Assembly (NCBI GenBank): GCA_026014725.1
Contig: JAOZHV010000052.1
Location: 177,259 to 241,258 of the forward strand
Direction of reading: 5' to 3'
Length of the DNA: 64,000 bases
From: Candidatus Bathyarchaeota archaeon
Lineage (GTDB): Archaea; Thermoproteota; Bathyarchaeia; Bathyarchaeales; Bathycorpusculaceae
Both the position numbers and the translations under genes were made by a program. Below the pieces are notes generated by a model, which saw nothing but the letters and a program-made list of their open reading frames with translations, ran no database searches and was not told where the DNA came from. Shown piece by piece: positions 2,367 through 64,000 of the stretch. Numbering within the stretch: the stretch's first letter is position 1; the number at the start of each line of letters is the position of its first letter.

Positions 2367-2640
2367 AACAACACACTAGGCGACAATAACAATTTAGAGT
2401 TTCCCCCTAACAACTAAGGGACACCTTTTACATTTTCACCCTACACACTTAATTGGCAAAGCGTGCTGTGAGCGACAGTTTGATGGTTGCTGCTTGCGGA
2501 TTTGGCTACAACCTGCCTGCAGTTTGGGGCTAACGCTGACGCAAAAAAGCAATCCATCGCAAAGTCTGCTGGTAGATGATGAGTAGGGCAGGCACTCTCT
2601 TCTTCTACTAATAAAAAAAACAAACCTAACCAAACGACTT

Positions 2641-2684
2641 AACCTACCCTATAGGGGATAGGGTATACGGCAAAGCAACAAACC
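2641..2684 (+). repeat. Conserved dispersed element, copy A (most diverged)
   Basis: Contains CCTATAGGGGATAGGGT and then GGCAAAGCAACAAACC, matching the order and spacing of copies B, C and D. In this copy TACCCTAT and ATAGGGTA form a perfect 8-base inverted repeat around AGGGG. It lies about 120 bases before the Elf1-like gene, which has its own TATA box at 2727-2735, so the element is not needed as that gene's core promoter. Confidence 0.6.
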
Positions 2685-2767: not shown

Positions 2768-3049
2768 ATGAGTTCAGACAAGGAAATGCGCAAAATCCCA
2801 ACCAGCCGCATCAAAATCCTAACCAAAGACGCCAAACAAATGGTCAACGGACCATACTACTGCCCAAAATGCCGAAAAGAACTCCTACAAATCTACGCTG
2901 ACGTCAAAAACAAACAAGCCTACGCCATATGCAAATGCGGACTAGAATGGCAACTAACCTACGCCCCAGTCTTCCAACCCATTGACTACTACAACAAATT
3001 TCGAGACCTCTGGAAAAAACAAAGCTACGGCATAATCAAACAAAAATAA
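2768..3049 (+). CDS. Elf1-like zinc-ribbon protein
   Basis: 93 residues. The centre holds CPKC and, about 30 residues later, CKCG, a four-Cys zinc ribbon. It is followed by APVFQPIDYYNKFRDLW, resembling the conserved PIDxY..F/W.D tail of the archaeal/eukaryotic transcription elongation factor Elf1. Elf1 binds RNA polymerase near the DNA channel; assignment here rests on ribbon plus tail, not on full-length similarity. The second Cys pair is CxC rather than CxxC. A basic N-terminal arm precedes the ribbon. It is monocistronic, downstream of conserved element A. Confidence 0.6.
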   Translation: MSSDKEMRKIPTSRIKILTKDAKQMVNGPYYCPKCRKELLQIYADVKNKQAYAICKCGLEWQLTYAPVFQPIDYYNKFRDLWKKQSYGIIKQK

Positions 3050-6313: not shown

Positions 6314-7603
6314 CTACGTGGTGGTTTGGTTCCAGTAGTAAACTGTCTTGTACTCTACTTTAGAGACTGGGTAAGCTGAATCCTCATAGACTATGTCTAG
6401 GCTGGTGCCATATTTTGCCAGCAGTTCACTCATGATTGTTGCGATTTGCTGTGTTTTATCGTCTGTTGACCAGAACCCCCAGATGGTGTCGTTGGGGTTG
6501 CGCATGCCCCACCCGTAATTGTGAGGCAAAACCAGCGCTACCTCAGGGCTACTTTTATCCACAAACTGTTTGTTGTTGATGTCGTTCCAGAACCGTTCAA
6601 GCGCAAGGTAATGTTGCTTAGTCATAGCTGCTGCGGTGTTGCCCTTATCATCTTTGGCGTAATTAAAAATCGTTATGTACTTGGCGCCTGCTTGATAGGC
6701 GCTGAGCATTTGGCTGTAAATTTTCTCTGGAGTATCAAGGAAAGGCACCTCATCGTACTTCCATGTAATCATGGCGCCCCACTCCTTATCCTGAAGCCGC
6801 GCTGCACCTTTCACTTGAGCTATCTGCTGAGCAACACTCGCATTCCACCCTAACTCAGCAAATAAAACATCGTATCCCCCTAAATAATCCCACCAATAGA
6901 GCCCATAATCAGAAGTGAAAGTGGTAATTCCTACAGCATTTAAGGTTGAAAGCCCCGGGTCACCATCACTTAACACTTCATTAATGAAAAATTCCGCTTC
7001 TAAATCATAGTTTTCAGGCTCAGTGCCATTATAGACGAAATCAAGCATTTTGAGATATATCTCATAGAGCGCTTGGAGTGCGGGATGGTCATGGCCGCTT
7101 AGGTTTTCTCCATAAGCTCTATACCAGTCTGCCCAGTACCCATCCAACTGGATTCCACCTGGTTCATCGTTGTAATACATACCAAGGAACTTGTCGCCCC
7201 AGCGTTGTGTCCAGTTCTGCTTGATGCTGTCCAGTGGTTCCAGCCAAAACCAAGTAGACTCGTTTTTTTCTATAACATCATAGATGCCTAAGTTAACTAT
7301 GATGCTTAATCCGTTTGCTACGGCGTAATCGCAGGCTTCATACACTGCAGACTGGTTCCTGCTCAACACGCTTCTGCCCGAATCTAAAATAAACAGGTTA
7401 GTGTACGCTTTTGTTCTGTCGATAAGCGCTTTCGCTTCAGCGGTGGTGTTTCCGCAAAAAGCAACCCCGACAAAAACGCCTGGGTCCGCTTTCACTCGGC
7501 TCCAGCCTAAATAGTACATGTGAAAGCCCAAGATTGAAACTGCCAGAACTGTAATCAGCAAGGCTCCAACAACATACTTACCAATTCTTTTGAACCCGCT
7601 CAC
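6314..7603 (-). CDS. Exported glycoside-hydrolase-like TIM-barrel protein
   Basis: 429 residues. A signal-anchor helix (about residues 9-30) is followed by a large external domain. The segments GVFVGVAFCGNTTAEAK, IIVNLGIYDVIEK, FLGMYYNDEPGGIQLDGYW and GAMITWKYDEVPFLDTPEKI read as successive strands of a barrel with acidic residues at strand ends, as in (beta/alpha)8 glycosidases. Repeated NxT/S sites (for example NTT, NES, NGT) suggest N-glycosylation. The family is not identified, and polysaccharide cleavage is inference. It is divergent from the beta-helix gene and shares a palindrome-rich intergenic region with it. Confidence 0.55.
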   Translation of the reverse strand: MSGFKRIGKYVVGALLITVLAVSILGFHMYYLGWSRVKADPGVFVGVAFCGNTTAEAKALIDRTKAYTNLFILDSGRSVLSRNQSAVYEACDYAVANGLSIIVNLGIYDVIEKNESTWFWLEPLDSIKQNWTQRWGDKFLGMYYNDEPGGIQLDGYWADWYRAYGENLSGHDHPALQALYEIYLKMLDFVYNGTEPENYDLEAEFFINEVLSDGDPGLSTLNAVGITTFTSDYGLYWWDYLGGYDVLFAELGWNASVAQQIAQVKGAARLQDKEWGAMITWKYDEVPFLDTPEKIYSQMLSAYQAGAKYITIFNYAKDDKGNTAAAMTKQHYLALERFWNDINNKQFVDKSSPEVALVLPHNYGWGMRNPNDTIWGFWSTDDKTQQIATIMSELLAKYGTSLDIVYEDSAYPVSKVEYKTVYYWNQTTT

Positions 7604-26720: not shown

Positions 26721-26812
26721 AACCGCTTTATATAGGGGGATAGGTTCTACTGGCAGAGCAACAAACCTTTCCCTAACATAACACCATTGCGTCTCAAAAT
26801 GCAATAGCGCAA
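26721..26812 (+). repeat. Conserved dispersed element, copy B (possible small-RNA gene)
   Basis: CCGCTTTATATAGGGGGAT, then ...CTACTGGCAGAGCAACAAA, then a hairpin ATTGC/GCAAT at 26786-26805 and CAATAGCGC. The 39 bases from the TATA box (26727) to ACAAA match copy D at 38 positions, although D lies 34 kb away on the other strand. The distal CAATAGCGC is also shared with D. A promoter at the TATA box would start RNA near AGAGCAACAAACC. The downstream gene has its own TATA box at 26839. Confidence 0.7.
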
Positions 26813-26848: not shown

Positions 26849-26883
26849 AGCCTTACAATATCAACCCGAAAGAAGTGTTCCTA

Positions 26884-27063
26884 ATGTCAGAAAAACTCTC
26901 ATTAGTCACATGCACCAGTTGCGGCAAACCAATCCCACCAGTCAGCGAATCCACCAAATTCCTCTGCCCCAATTGCGGTGAAATCCAGATAAAACGCGAC
27001 GGAAAATGCCGCAAATTCGGCAGACTCTACAAATGCCCAAAATGCGGATTTACAGGACCATAA
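26884..27063 (+). CDS. Small double zinc-finger protein (HVO_2753-like)
   Basis: 59 residues with four CxxC knuckles: CTSC, CPNC, a CRKFG segment with its Cys pair, and CPKC ending CGFTGP. The layout and GKCRKFGRLYKCPKCGFTGP end match the two-zinc archaeal family I know from Haloferax HVO_2753. It probably contacts RNA, as the family is linked to swarming and translation in haloarchaea. It is 14 bases upstream of aEF1B and likely co-transcribed with it. Confidence 0.8.
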   Translation: MSEKLSLVTCTSCGKPIPPVSESTKFLCPNCGEIQIKRDGKCRKFGRLYKCPKCGFTGP

Positions 27064-55740: not shown

Positions 55741-55940
55741 TTTTTGGCATATTTGCCGCCTATTAGGATATCTATGCAGAAACTATAGAGGGGTCTGTTT
55801 TTGCGAGCCTATTTGTATCCTATTAGTGGTTCTATGTTGAAACCTATAGGGGGTAGGTATTTTTTTATGCCACTCTGCTACCTGCCCAGCATATTTGGAT
55901 CCTAATAGTCAACCATTGCACTACACCTATAGGGGGTCTA
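55741..55940 (+). repeat. Three degenerate tandem repeats, about 60-80 bases apart
   Basis: Copies at 55741-55800, 55801-55860 and 55882-55940. They share TATTTG, an ATCCTATTAG-like stretch, a TCTATGTTGAAAC-like stretch and end in ACCTATAGGGGGT (ACTATAGAGGGGT in the first). The first two are in exact 60-base register. The TATAGGGGG core is the same as in conserved elements A-D, which suggests a common origin. Confidence 0.65.
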
Positions 55941-55980
55941 TCCTGTTGGCGCTTTTTCAATCCAAAAGCATGTTGAAATC

Positions 55981-56100
55981 GCCGCTTTATATAGGGGGAT
56001 GGGGGTAGCTGCAGAGCAACAAACCGCGCCCTCTTTATAGTATAAATAAGGGGGGTATAGAAAAAAAGAAAGCCATCGTTCCAAACGATGAATCTTTAAT
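55981..56100 (+). repeat. Conserved dispersed element, copy C
   Basis: CCGCTTTATATAGGGGGAT (TATA box 55986-55993), then GTAGCTGCAGAGCAACAAACC. Downstream is a hairpin CATCGTT-CCA-AACGATG at 56074-56090 followed by a T-rich run, which would suit the end of a short RNA. It lies about 250 bases before psmA, which has its own TATA box. Confidence 0.65.
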
Positions 56101-60319: not shown

Positions 60320-60583
60320 ATGGTAACAAGCGCAAAGGCTAATGTATGCTTAAAGTTTACCTCAGAAAAACAATTAACCACGCTTCTTAATGCCCTAAAA
60401 CCAGAAGCAGATGTTCCACCAACCAGAAGAGCGAACGTAAAACTAGAAAAAGACGGCTTGGTGCTTCTGTTGAAGGTTGAGGCAGACGACACGGTTGCCC
60501 TGCGTGCAACATTAAACGCTTATTTAAGGTGGATAAACTCCACAAACAGCATCATCAAAGTTATTGAGACTGGCTCAAACTGA
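60320..60583 (+). CDS. pcc1: KEOPS complex subunit Pcc1
   Basis: 87 residues. SAKANVCLKFTSEKQLTTLLNALKPEADVPPTRRANVKLEKDG and LRATLNAYLRWINSTNSIIKVIE match the small dimerising Pcc1 subunit. KEOPS makes t6A in tRNA with the Sua5 product (gene at 9896). The gene follows eL43 after 73 bases; GAGGGGG precedes the ATG at 60320. Confidence 0.85.
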   Translation: MVTSAKANVCLKFTSEKQLTTLLNALKPEADVPPTRRANVKLEKDGLVLLLKVEADDTVALRATLNAYLRWINSTNSIIKVIETGSN

Positions 60584-60892
60584 CTCTTTATATGTTTCTC
60601 ATTAAAGCCTAAAAGGCGCTATTGTAGACAATTTGTTGCTCTGCCAGTAGAGCCTATCCCCCTATATAAATCACTTTTTTATTCTCGTTTTTGCTTATTT
60701 GAAGCACTATGCGGTTTTTTACGGGTTGTTTTTTGGGTGACAAAATTCTATGTGCAGTTGCATTTTTTTATTTATCATTATTTTCAATCAATTGTCATAA
60801 CACTTATAAATCCAAAATAGTGATTATATAGTCAGCCAAGCAATATTTCGCATAGCTTTTGCTTGGTTAACCAATTTAGGGAGAAAATAAAA
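60584..60892. other. 309-base intergenic region
   Basis: Holds conserved element D on the minus strand and a plus-strand TATA box (CTTATAAAT at about 60803) for the next gene. No other coding frame is convincing. Confidence 0.5.
60612..60670 (-). repeat. Conserved dispersed element, copy D (inverted)
   Basis: Read on the minus strand: TTTATATAGGGGGATAGG, then CTCTACTGGCAGAGCAACAAA, then ATTGT/ACAAT hairpin and CAATAGCGC. It agrees with copy B over 38 of 39 bases, and the one difference (C for T) keeps a GYTCT/AGAGC stem. Downstream GCCTTTTAGGC plus TTT looks like a short terminator hairpin. Nothing is encoded in this direction before Pcc1's opposite strand. Confidence 0.7.
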
Positions 60893-63424
60893 ATGCACTT
60901 TAAGAAAACAATAGCAGTGCTGTTACTTTTCGCTTTTGTATCAACGATAGTTACAACTTTACCAATAACTGTCAATGCACAGGCAACACCTACCATGAAA
61001 ACCTATCCTATCATCGAAGCCATTCCAAACCCAGTCGGGCGAGGCGAGCAAACCTTAATCAGAACAGGGATTCTGCAGCAAGCAGCATCCGTAAACTACG
61101 GTTGGACAGGTGTAACAGTAACCGTTGTTAGACCTGACAATACAACAGAGACGCTCGGGCCGTTCAAAACTGACTCAACAGGCGCAACCTTCACAATATA
61201 TACACCTACACAGGTCGGAACATATAAGCTGACAACACACTTCCCACAGCAAACAAACCCTGTAGGTTTCCTCAACTATGAATCAGGCGCGTTTATCGCT
61301 GCAGGCACTATAATGCAAGCAAGTACGAGTGAAACGATAGATCTTATTGTAAATGAAGAACCAACACGATTCTATCCAGATCAACCTCTTCCAGCAGAAT
61401 ACTGGAGCCGACCAATAGACCCACAACTAAGGTCGTGGTACTCAATCTCAGGCAACTGGGTTGAAAGACCAGACAACTCGCTAGCCCTCTACAACGACGA
61501 TGCACCAGAAACTGCTCACGTTCTATGGGCAAGACCATTGACAACTGGAGGCTTAGCAGGAGGCCTGTTTGGCGAAGACGGAATTCCAGCAACATCTGAG
61601 ACAGGAGACGCTTACGAAGGCAAATTCCCAGGCTCAGTGATTCTAAACGGAATCCTCTACTACCAAAGAACAGACAGCAGAAGGGAAACTGCCCCAGCAA
61701 TCATCGCAATTGATCTGCACACTGGCGAAGAATGGTTGTTCAGAAACAACACTGTACTATCTTTCGGTCAAGTATTCTGGTTCGACAGCTACAACTATGA
61801 CGGTGTATTCACCTACATCTGGTCAGTCGTTGGTAACACTTGGATTGCATATGACCCCTTCACTGGCAATGAACAGATGAGAATTACAAACATGCCTTCA
61901 GGCGTTAGAGCACGTGGTCCAAAGGGTGAAATCCTACTCTACCAAATTGACTATGCTAATCGCTGGTTAGCTCTTTGGAACTCAACTGACTGCGGTCTTC
62001 AGAATGCGGTTATCGGTACTCCTGACTATGGCAGTTGGGGCAACACAGCACACGGAGGATCATTGAATACAACGAAAGGATTAGTTGGAACAGACCCGAG
62101 AAGCTACTCATGGAACGTTACTATCCCAGCCGGATTAGCAGCTAGCTCATCATTCTTTACACCAATATTGAAGGTTTTTCCAGACAGAGTAATGTCAGTG
62201 GTATTCAATCTTACACAGGTACGAGTATGGGCAGTAAGCACTGAACCAGGACGACGCGGCCAATTGTTATTTGACAAAACATGGAAAGCACCAGCTGAAT
62301 GGCTAGAAGGCTCCAACACTCTACACTACGTAGGCGCAACGAACGAAGCTAAAAACGGCGTCATTGCAATATGGAACAAAGAACTCAGAAAGCACTATGC
62401 CTTTAGCACTGAAACCGGAGAATACCTGTGGCAAACCGAATCAGAACACTACGCAAACGCCTATGGATGGGGCAACGTCGAACACACATGGTACTTTGCT
62501 TATGACCACCTCTACTCAACAGGTGTCTCAGGCATACTATATGCCTACGACCTCAAGACAGGCAAAACAGACTGGACATATGAACTGACAGACCCATACA
62601 ATGAACCAGTCACCGGCGAGAACTGGTGGGGCTGGATATCCTTGATTGCCGACGGAAAACTTTACGTTGGTACTCTTGAACACTCAGCTGAGAACCCACT
62701 ACCGCGCGGTGCACCATTCATCTGCCTAAATGCTACTGATGGTAGCGTAATTTGGCGTGTTAATGGTATGTTCCGTCAGACTCGTTGGGGTGGCAACGCG
62801 ATTATCGGCGACAGCATCATAGCAACCATGGACACCTATGACCAACGCGTGTACGCTATCGGTAAAGGCCCAAGCGCAATAACCGCTACTGCACCGGATG
62901 TTTCAGTAGAACTCGGCAAATCTGTCATCATAAAAGGCACCGTCACTGACATTTCCCCAGGCACCAAGGACTCGGCTATAGCAATGCGGTTCCCCAATGG
63001 TGTTGCAGCAGTTTCTGACGAGAGCCAAAGCGACTGGATGCTATACGTCTACAAACAATTCAGTTGCCCAGCAAATGTAACCGGAGTCCCAGTAACTATC
63101 GATGTCATCGACGCTAACGGCAACTATAGAAACATCGGCACCACAACAAGCGATGGAACTGGCTTCTACAGTTTCGCTTGGGAACCAGATATTCCAGGCA
63201 AGTACACTGTACTAGCAACATTCGGTGGATCTAAAGCGTATTATCCATCGACTGCTCAGACTGCTTTCGTTGTTGACGAAGCACCACCAGCTAGCGCTGC
63301 ACCAACTGAAACGCCGCCATCAGTAGCTGACATGTACTTCATACCGATGTCAATCGGTATTTTAGTGGCAATAATAGTAATAGGCGCAATCCTAGCACTG
63401 CTACTATTAAGGAAACGACCATAA
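60893..63424 (+). CDS. Exported PQQ-like beta-propeller surface protein
   Basis: 843 residues. Signal peptide (KKTIAVLLLFAFVSTIVTTLP), an Ig-like domain (about 30-145), a propeller with repeated strands around GEEWLFRNN, AYDPFTGNEQMR, GEYLWQTESEHY, LYAYDLKTGKTDW and FICLNATDGSVIWRVNG (about 170-660), an Ig-like domain near the end and a Pro/Thr linker leading to the anchor ADMYFIPMSIGILVAIIVIG + RKRP. Such proteins form large surface families in some archaea. Function likely structural or carbohydrate/redox cofactor binding. The ATG at 60893 follows GGGAGAAA. Confidence 0.8.
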   Translation: MHFKKTIAVLLLFAFVSTIVTTLPITVNAQATPTMKTYPIIEAIPNPVGRGEQTLIRTGILQQAASVNYGWTGVTVTVVRPDNTTETLGPFKTDSTGATFTIYTPTQVGTYKLTTHFPQQTNPVGFLNYESGAFIAAGTIMQASTSETIDLIVNEEPTRFYPDQPLPAEYWSRPIDPQLRSWYSISGNWVERPDNSLALYNDDAPETAHVLWARPLTTGGLAGGLFGEDGIPATSETGDAYEGKFPGSVILNGILYYQRTDSRRETAPAIIAIDLHTGEEWLFRNNTVLSFGQVFWFDSYNYDGVFTYIWSVVGNTWIAYDPFTGNEQMRITNMPSGVRARGPKGEILLYQIDYANRWLALWNSTDCGLQNAVIGTPDYGSWGNTAHGGSLNTTKGLVGTDPRSYSWNVTIPAGLAASSSFFTPILKVFPDRVMSVVFNLTQVRVWAVSTEPGRRGQLLFDKTWKAPAEWLEGSNTLHYVGATNEAKNGVIAIWNKELRKHYAFSTETGEYLWQTESEHYANAYGWGNVEHTWYFAYDHLYSTGVSGILYAYDLKTGKTDWTYELTDPYNEPVTGENWWGWISLIADGKLYVGTLEHSAENPLPRGAPFICLNATDGSVIWRVNGMFRQTRWGGNAIIGDSIIATMDTYDQRVYAIGKGPSAITATAPDVSVELGKSVIIKGTVTDISPGTKDSAIAMRFPNGVAAVSDESQSDWMLYVYKQFSCPANVTGVPVTIDVIDANGNYRNIGTTTSDGTGFYSFAWEPDIPGKYTVLATFGGSKAYYPSTAQTAFVVDEAPPASAAPTETPPSVADMYFIPMSIGILVAIIVIGAILALLLLRKRP

Positions 63425-63846: not shown

Positions 63847-64000
63847 TTATGGGCGTTTTTTGAGCAGTAGTAGTGCTAGGATTGCGCCAACTACTATGAT
63901 TGCGATTATTACTCCGGCCATTGCGGGCACAAAGTACATGTCAGCTACTGATGGCGGCGTTTCTGTGGGCGCGGCAGTGGCTTCTGGCTGTGGACTGACG
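63847..64000 (-). CDS. C-terminal part of a second surface protein (partial)
   Basis: About 50 residues at the window edge: a Pro/Thr-rich linker, APTETPPSVADMYFVPAMAG, a transmembrane helix (VIIAIIVVGAILALLLL) and KKRP before the stop. The tail equals that of the 843-residue protein in nearly every residue, so it is a convergent paralog whose body lies beyond the window. Confidence 0.8.
   Translation of the reverse strand, partial: VSPQPEATAAPTETPPSVADMYFVPAMAGVIIAIIVVGAILALLLLKKRP

Follow-up and report, generated by a model that had tools for sequence, protein, structure and literature searches.

The window, meaning the whole stretch of 64,000 nucleotides analysed here, carries four copies (A to D) of a short element at about 2641, 26721, 55981 and, on the minus strand, 60670, all of them at the places given in the original prediction. 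The cores listed below were matched with R1, a sequence-only model of the 43-base core built from 31 copies.

2535..2634, plus strand: upstream module of copy A, with a CTTCTTCTACTAATAAAAA stretch (found by eye; borders approximate)
2651..2684, plus strand: core of copy A (R1, E 3.1e-8; contig C52:179909-179942, model positions 9-43)
26725..26767, plus strand: core of copy B, with TTTATATA octamer, G-rich spacer and GCAGAGCAACAAA at 26753-26765 (R1, E 1.4e-13)
26802..26810, plus strand: CAATAGCGC after copy B, common to copy D (sequence comparison)
55888..55983, plus strand: upstream module U1 of copy C (CATATTTGG...TGCA...CCTATAGGGGG...GTTGGCGC...CATGTTGAAATCGC; alignment A3 row L009 and repeat depth map; borders approximate)
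55984..56025, plus strand: core of copy C, with TTTATATA octamer (R1, E 4.8e-12)
56034..56066, plus strand: downstream D module of copy C (TTTATAGTATAAATAAGGGGGGTATAGAAAAAA): another A/T box and, after it, a G-run (borders approximate)
60632..60670, minus strand: core of copy D, with TTTATATA octamer (R1, E 1.0e-12)
60616..60624, minus strand: CAATAGCGC after copy D (sequence comparison)

Copy A lies 83 bp ahead of an Elf1-like gene (2768-3049; PF05129), copy B is followed by an open reading frame of 62 aa (26875-27063), and copy C stands 207 bp ahead of psmA (56233; PF00227). Copy D aims at the 3' end of a Pcc1-like gene on the opposite strand (60320-60583; PF09341), 48 bp away. A TATA box had been claimed for all four; copies B, C and D have the full octamer, and copy A has the CCCTATAGGGG form without it, so that R1 matches it only from position 9 (35 bits). 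By eye, the upstream module of copy A also occurs in other copies, several of them of the same short-TATA form. This core subclass, CCCTATAGGG, appears tied to a different upstream module with CTTCTTCTACTAATAAAAA, as in the window (2535-2684), at L011 (E047) and at L087 in genome G006.

The stretch from TTTATATA to ACAAA bears out the reported identity of copies B and D, with 38 of 39 bases in agreement. Both then carry CAATAGCGC, 36 bases further on in B and 7 bases further on in D, a length difference of 29 and not of 30 as had been stated. The shared CAATAGCGC is likely to be a remnant of the downstream D module, which reads CAATAGCGCCTATATAATAGGGGG in another copy; copy C has both U1 and a D module, and copies B and D have only this putative remnant, with no upstream module seen at B. 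When TTTATATAGGGGGATRGG was searched with up to three mismatches, the window gave 4 matches against 0.02 expected, too many to be due to chance: copies B, C and D and one at 6871 that is not among the R1 hits. The window also holds other repeats: near its end an inverted repeat (63284-63339 and 63932-63987; 56 bases, 84% complementary, 592 bases apart), and two direct repeats of 72% identity, 50208-50491/51488-51771 (284 bases) and 28116-28309/28935-29128 (194 bases), which are perhaps internal gene duplications.

The element had been described as a family of four members, and it is far larger. Across the whole genome holding the window (G000; 2.56 Mb, 63 contigs), a strict two-part pattern gave 11 matches and its reversed control none, while GGCARAGCAACAAA with at most one mismatch gave 69 matches against 1 for the reversed pattern. 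Model R1 finds at least 106 matches at E<=1 and at least 85 at E<1e-5 (best 150 of 1450 candidates scored); since each genome search scored at most 150 first-look candidates, all copy numbers given here are lower bounds. The core consensus is GC-TTT[AT][AT]ATA-GGGGGATAGGGTCTAT-GGCAGAGCAACAAAC. The suggested course of building a position model from the copies and scanning the genome and its relatives with it has thus shown the family well beyond the window, with its copies outside predicted genes.

The depth map and the sequences show many cores standing alone, and others with one or more longer modules upstream and a shorter module downstream. The U1 module has the motif CATATTTGG..CTATTAG..TGCAGAAACCTATAGGGGGTAGG; a palindrome seen in it by eye was considered as a conserved RNA hairpin and rejected, since RNAalifold gave 3 pairs, none with a double change. 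In the D module an A/T box, a G-run and CTATAG recur. The U2/U3 modules form a nested double inverted repeat (e.g. L005 and L004, upstream of the core) with arms of TACTACGTACA or TACTACGACCA, of which there are 69 genome-wide. Nested arm pairs in the G000 DNA examined for context (413,950 bases, window included) have the same form in 42 of 42 cases, where 0.57 would be expected if the arms were independent, and 13 of 28 clusters have the order FFRR; the matching forms may go back to one ancient division into two subfamilies. For single copies, folding gives z -5.7 in one form and -4.7 in the other. Two copies in G000, E031 and E032 (L099 and L100), share a near-identical downstream stretch with CGTACAT repeats that is unlike the usual D module.

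All of the best 98 matches in G000 lie outside predicted genes, as do 70 of 71 in the related genome G018, the genes having been called with a crude codon-frequency script that missed the 62-aa frame after copy B. The next gene is on the same strand as the element in 49 of 91 cases and on the opposite strand in 42 (32 and 36 in G018), and where both neighbours were called in G000 the setting is divergent 25 times, convergent 17 times and tandem 42 times. Direction is therefore balanced with respect to neighbouring genes and the element, as a class, is not the promoter of the next gene, which bears out the earlier view that the copies are not simply core promoters of the genes behind them. That those genes have a TATA box of their own also agrees with the counts: a TATA-like hexamer is found ahead of sense-downstream genes as often as ahead of others (10/32 and 21/79).

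The copies facing gene ends raise the question of whether the signal belongs to the other strand, as a pyrimidine-rich signal for 3'-end formation or termination at the gene that ends beside the element. Opposite-strand downstream genes end less than 100 bp from the core in 24 of 42 cases, compared with 5 of 49 same-strand genes that start within that distance, and the copy beside aspS lies within about 30 bp of the stop codon in several species. Gene ends tolerate closer neighbours than gene starts in any case, however, 49 copies have a gene start and not an end on that side, and the exchange of A for T within the octamer described below would be left unexplained. We regard a terminator as very improbable.

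The genes downstream of the copies bear on a further proposal, that the element is a shared control element for translation and proteasome genes. Its wider form is a growth regulon that takes in ribosomal proteins, RNA polymerase, TBP, elongation factors, proteasome and chaperones; the element would be its shared promoter or control element, and copies facing the other way would be by-products. Pfam searches of sense-downstream genes within 400 bp (31 of 32 tested) found, among others, aEF1B, RpoH, S8e, TBP, Elf1, L15e, L3, prefoldin, PsmA and Hsp20; the targets L3, RpoH, S8e, L15e and TBP count in favour of such a regulon. Divergent genes within 600 bp (29 of 32 tested) included one growth gene (S12; MetRS was present and not counted), and opposite-strand downstream genes (30 of 33 tested) none, with AspS, a tRNA ligase, RtcB and Pcc1 present. 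With a growth class that was drawn after seeing the gene list and excludes tRNA synthetases and TrmI, the contrast in G000 is 10/31 sense-downstream against 1/29 divergent genes (Fisher p 0.006), and 7/28 against 1/29 (p 0.025) once the three window genes behind the proposal are set aside. For a strict set of ribosomal, RNA polymerase, TBP and elongation factor genes, however, p is 0.053, or 0.10 without the window genes. The hint seen in G000 was not repeated in G018, where the counts are 2/15 and 0/15 (the 15 best-ranked matches among 22 and among 29 genes, the shared gene of a palindromic pair left out) and both growth genes lie at sites orthologous to G000 ones. The 42 copies that face gene ends, nearly as many as the 49 facing starts, and the ordinary frequency of TATA-like boxes at the target genes themselves also speak against a growth regulon, which we consider improbable.

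The octamer of the core was itself unscored in the alignment, so that one-base shifts are possible. Of its letters in G000, 650 of 680 are A or T, and the minority letters are A/T 141 times (some of which may be one-base shifts) against G/C 30 times; at the A positions of GCAGAGCAACAAA, by comparison, T is the replacement in 10 cases and G/C in 26. The best 60 of the 71 hits in G018 have 434 of 479 octamer letters A or T, minority letters 120 A/T against 45 G/C, and the A positions of GCAGAGCAACAAA changed 6 times to T against 22 times to G/C. The commonest octamers in G000 are TTTAAATA (25 of 79), TTTATATA (24) and TTTTTATA (19). The distance from the end of the octamer to GCAGAG is 15-18 nt in 79 of 79 copies in G000 and in 50 of 54 in G018, by a regular expression that needs five A/T letters and dropped 6 of 85 copies in G000 and 6 of the best 60 of 71 hits in G018. 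Archaeal TATA boxes lie about 26 nucleotides from the transcription start, and the predicted start of the element therefore falls within the conserved block. The element is, as had been noted for the window copies, unusually constrained, and it is so genome-wide and between genes. In the spacer, the form GAT[AG]G occurs in 75 of 85 copies in G000 and 15 of the best 60 of 71 hits in G018, and species have different spacer forms even where they share a site.

Ordinary genes of G000 give a point of reference. TTATAT and TTAAAT are among the hexamers enriched ahead of them, and TATA-like hexamers peak at -50 to -41 from the start codon (28 of 72 hits, at 122 starts), with no peak after genes (18 hits at 88 ends). 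Ahead of ordinary genes there is no enrichment of the exact octamer TTTWWATA, which was counted 10 times at 201 gene starts and 11 times at 159 gene ends. Archaeal core promoters have a purine-rich BRE before the TATA box. No purine-rich BRE is seen at the element, which mostly has GC or CC just before the octamer and low information further up. Changes to the BRE left activity unaffected in repeats of the halovirus HF2 (PMC8707807). What the element shares with an archaeal core promoter is an A/T-only box with free exchange of A and T, at a fixed distance from a start-like region.

The genes flanking G018 copies were searched in the G000 DNA around G000 copies. A hit was obtained for 43, and 22 of them have the G000 element on the same side and in the same direction (19 of 71 G018 elements); 18 of these hits, at 16 elements, have at least 58% identity. 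Only 3 of the 43 are on the same side in the opposite direction, one being the second half of a palindromic pair and two having less than 27% identity. A further 6 are on the other side, and 12 are near no element in the 413,950 bases of G000 searched, which does not amount to absence. Scans of 30 loci for each of aspS and cysE found an antisense core at most about 30 bp past the aspS stop in G000, G018, G011 (18.7 bits), G006 (14.5 bits) and G022 (11.6 bits, filters off), the last three being weak, and an antisense core after cysE in G000, G043 and G018. The remaining loci scanned gave no such match at the thresholds used. A decayed copy suspected by eye after aspS in G024 was rejected, as the model with filters off finds none there. 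G043 has a core 1.3 kb past aspS, and in G011 a weak match (16.1 bits) in the other direction lies 146 bp past cysE. The G018 site after cysE, orthologous to E003 of G000, holds two back-to-back cores on one TTATATAA box, a palindromic and bidirectional arrangement (L394 2480-2545, the same as L257 2514-2578).

At these sites the core is kept and its surroundings are not: from one species to another, the modules before and after it change. Among 16 hand-picked orthologous pairs (6/E070, 46/E056 and those below 58% identity, i.e. elements 14, 20 and 59 and the pair 22/E031, were left out), identity is 0.70 in the core and 0.43 and 0.46 in the 40-base upstream and downstream flanks, compared with 0.69, 0.43 and 0.43 in 200 random cross-genome pairs. 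Core identity is not raised in orthologous pairs over the other cross-genome pairs of this set (0.699 against 0.696; 810 of 2000 permutations reach the observed mean), while it is 0.755 within G000 and 0.705 within G018. On the simplest reading the sites are old, and a common constraint, or copying from one copy to another, holds the core to a form that prevails across the genome. As orthologous copies are not set apart by likeness, separate arrivals at shared sites are also possible.

The loss of likeness beyond the core weighs on the earlier suggestion of independent short RNA genes, in which each member of a discrete family would have this promoter and a short product. Such genes would suit the 42 of 91 copies with no same-direction gene behind the core, and one downstream stretch (GCAGAGC...TTCTGC and a D module, locus L018, copy E038) folds at z -3.1. 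Conservation, however, ends at the core or soon after, and the 40 bases behind orthologous cores are about as unlike as random ones (0.46 against 0.43). Small hairpins had been reported after copies B, C and D; folding covered B and D, where shuffled sequence folds just as well (z -0.47 and -0.07). There is no terminator-like enrichment of T-runs after the core, no tRNA or known RNA was found at the elements examined, and Rfam gave no match in the window elements or at 20 loci. The evidence thus argues against a small-RNA family, and we think it hardly probable.

The element is restricted to close relatives of the window genome. The nearest named relatives, among the matches listed for psmA, are SRBZ_4 and palsa_989 (Bathyarchaeota / Candidatus Bathycorpusculum), at 95% identity. 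R1 has more than one match only within the genus in 40 relatives searched, and in the 16 genomes from the order's other genera it has at most 1 match at E<=0.1. R2, a second and wider model built on 48 copies taken from 8 genomes, was run at E<=0.01 on 32 genomes of the genus and gave at least 98 matches in G000, at least 86 in G018, and 61, 53, 53, 37, 20, 12 and 6 in others; two further genomes have 1 and 2 matches and 21 of the 32 have none, and the element looks dispensable accordingly. As one genome in 3 contigs (G007) has 2 weak hits, absence is not only an effect of assembly. A tree of the psmA block (29 genomes, G018 left out) places all eight carriers in one half of 17 genomes, with none among the other 12; the split has support of 86/76, and the carrier labels need 5 changes (11 of 500 shuffles are as low).

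Across 45 psmA loci a clear upstream copy is present only in G000 and G043 (27.0 bits, E 1.1e-6), a further point against a growth regulon, and weak copies are present in G013/fen_992 (17.3 bits) and G011 (15.3 bits). Copy C had seemed private to G000 with the narrow model (best 13.7 and 10.9 bits), which was rejected when the wider model found the G043 copy. The sites of copies B and D each have one weak match in relatives, in G011 (17.4 bits) and at L167 (13.9 bits) respectively. G018 (90% complete) yielded no orthologue of the window psmA; the only psmA found there (L384) is 76% identical and resembles the second copy of other genomes. Synteny breaks at both edges of the psmA block, leaving no clean empty site and no readable insertion point.

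Taking these observations together, we give about an even chance to the reading that the core of a dispersed, modular, intergenic repeat works as a stand-alone archaeal promoter, with transcription predicted from sequence features. This reading is preferred because of the A/T octamer, the fixed spacing, the conserved start-like block, and the place and direction that are kept; the set of observations behind it is made up of copy number, location outside genes, balanced direction, mostly A/T-for-A/T change in the octamer, fixed spacing, the matched subset kept in a relative, and the modules that change beside it at those places. The octamer is a predicted TBP site, and GCAGAGCAACAAA would hold the transcription start. 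From about half of the copies transcription would run toward a gene start, which would gain an additional start site upstream; from about half it would run into the 3' end of an opposite gene, giving antisense RNA. The family probably spread in the ancestor of one part of the genus and was then inherited in place, its copies being held near one genome-wide form by a common constraint or by copying between them.

The same balanced direction fits equally well a repeat without promoter function. A BOX- or ERIC-like modular interspersed repeat of this kind would play no role in transcription, being selfish or structural, tolerated, spread long ago and now decaying. Modules exchanged at fixed sites, the genus-limited and patchy distribution, nested inverted-repeat modules nearby, and a close likeness to pneumococcal BOX elements, which are modular, intergenic, slow-moving and not tied to functional classes (PMC3049150), all point the same way. 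Exchange of A for T in the octamer together with fixed spacing, and a core that is kept at orthologous sites where the flanks are random-like, are features that such a repeat leaves without a reason. A silent repeat is possible, if somewhat doubtful. The promoter reading may also be taken further, to 50-100 free-standing promoters at fixed places and directions as old as the clade, driving a layer of transcription both antisense to genes and upstream of them, with a dedicated factor to read them. Such a factor is suggested because the spacer form differs between species at the same sites, as if following a drifting protein; we think this extension unlikely.

Known repeats offer parallels to both the promoter and its setting. 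Intergenic repeats of halovirus HF2 have a TATA box at -26, a start within a conserved motif, reporter activity, and conserved place and orientation (PMC8707807). The 58-bp class I repeats of HF2 resemble the present element in being intergenic, with a TATA box and a conserved start-region motif, and in keeping place and orientation among relatives, which here is seen for a subset of copies (22 against 3 of 43 flank hits). They differ in belonging to a virus and in that nine repeats were reporter-tested (PMC8707807), whereas here about 85 copies on a cellular chromosome are known from sequence, embedded in other repeats and with nearly half facing gene ends. A viral origin was rejected, as two core patterns had 0 matches in viral_contigs.

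BOX elements of Streptococcus pneumoniae share optional or repeated modules, intergenic location, about 100 copies (BOX 125), predicted stem-loops, slow turnover at shared sites and limitation to close relatives (PMC3049150). Many intergenic copies of separable modules are likewise found here. No TATA promoter core is described for BOX in the sections consulted, and BOX has terminal inverted repeats and target duplications (PMC3049150), whereas the synteny breaks at the psmA edges left no such ends readable. ERIC, Correia and other prokaryotic MITEs are similar in being intergenic and multicopy with copy numbers that vary by species, and Correia carries promoters (PMC10969869). In contrast to MITEs, no terminal inverted repeat, target duplication or transposase could be linked to the core, the transposase search having covered the Y1 family only.

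REP elements are short intergenic repeats with palindromes and GTAG-like words, and are associated with RAYT (Y1) transposases. Short intergenic repeats with palindromes and GTAG-like words nearby are seen here too, but a REP/RAYT repeat was rejected, as PF01797 has 0 matches in G000 and is present in 5 of 14 control genomes. A search of titles and abstract beginnings in the open-licence PMC literature found no description of the family. On the best reading it is a BOX-like modular repeat whose core is a putative stand-alone archaeal promoter, by analogy with what has been demonstrated for the HF2 repeats.

If the element is transcribed, this would be a cellular archaeon with genome-wide, repeat-borne promoters, nearly half of them aimed into gene ends; antisense transcription would be explained by descent from one repeat family, and it would be seen how repeats can rewire archaeal regulation. 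If it is not, it is a well-marked modular repeat family in a little-studied lineage and a source of rearrangement markers. The latter use is suggested because G000 and G018 differ by a reciprocal exchange (L122 and L128 against L252 and L265) with breakpoints at elements and core direction kept. G000 has C44-left/E070/C44-right and C1-left/E063/C1-right, and G018 has C44-left/core/C1-right (L265) and C1-left/core/C44-right (L252). A second such exchange junction is suggested at L300, where the flanks match E021 and E034.
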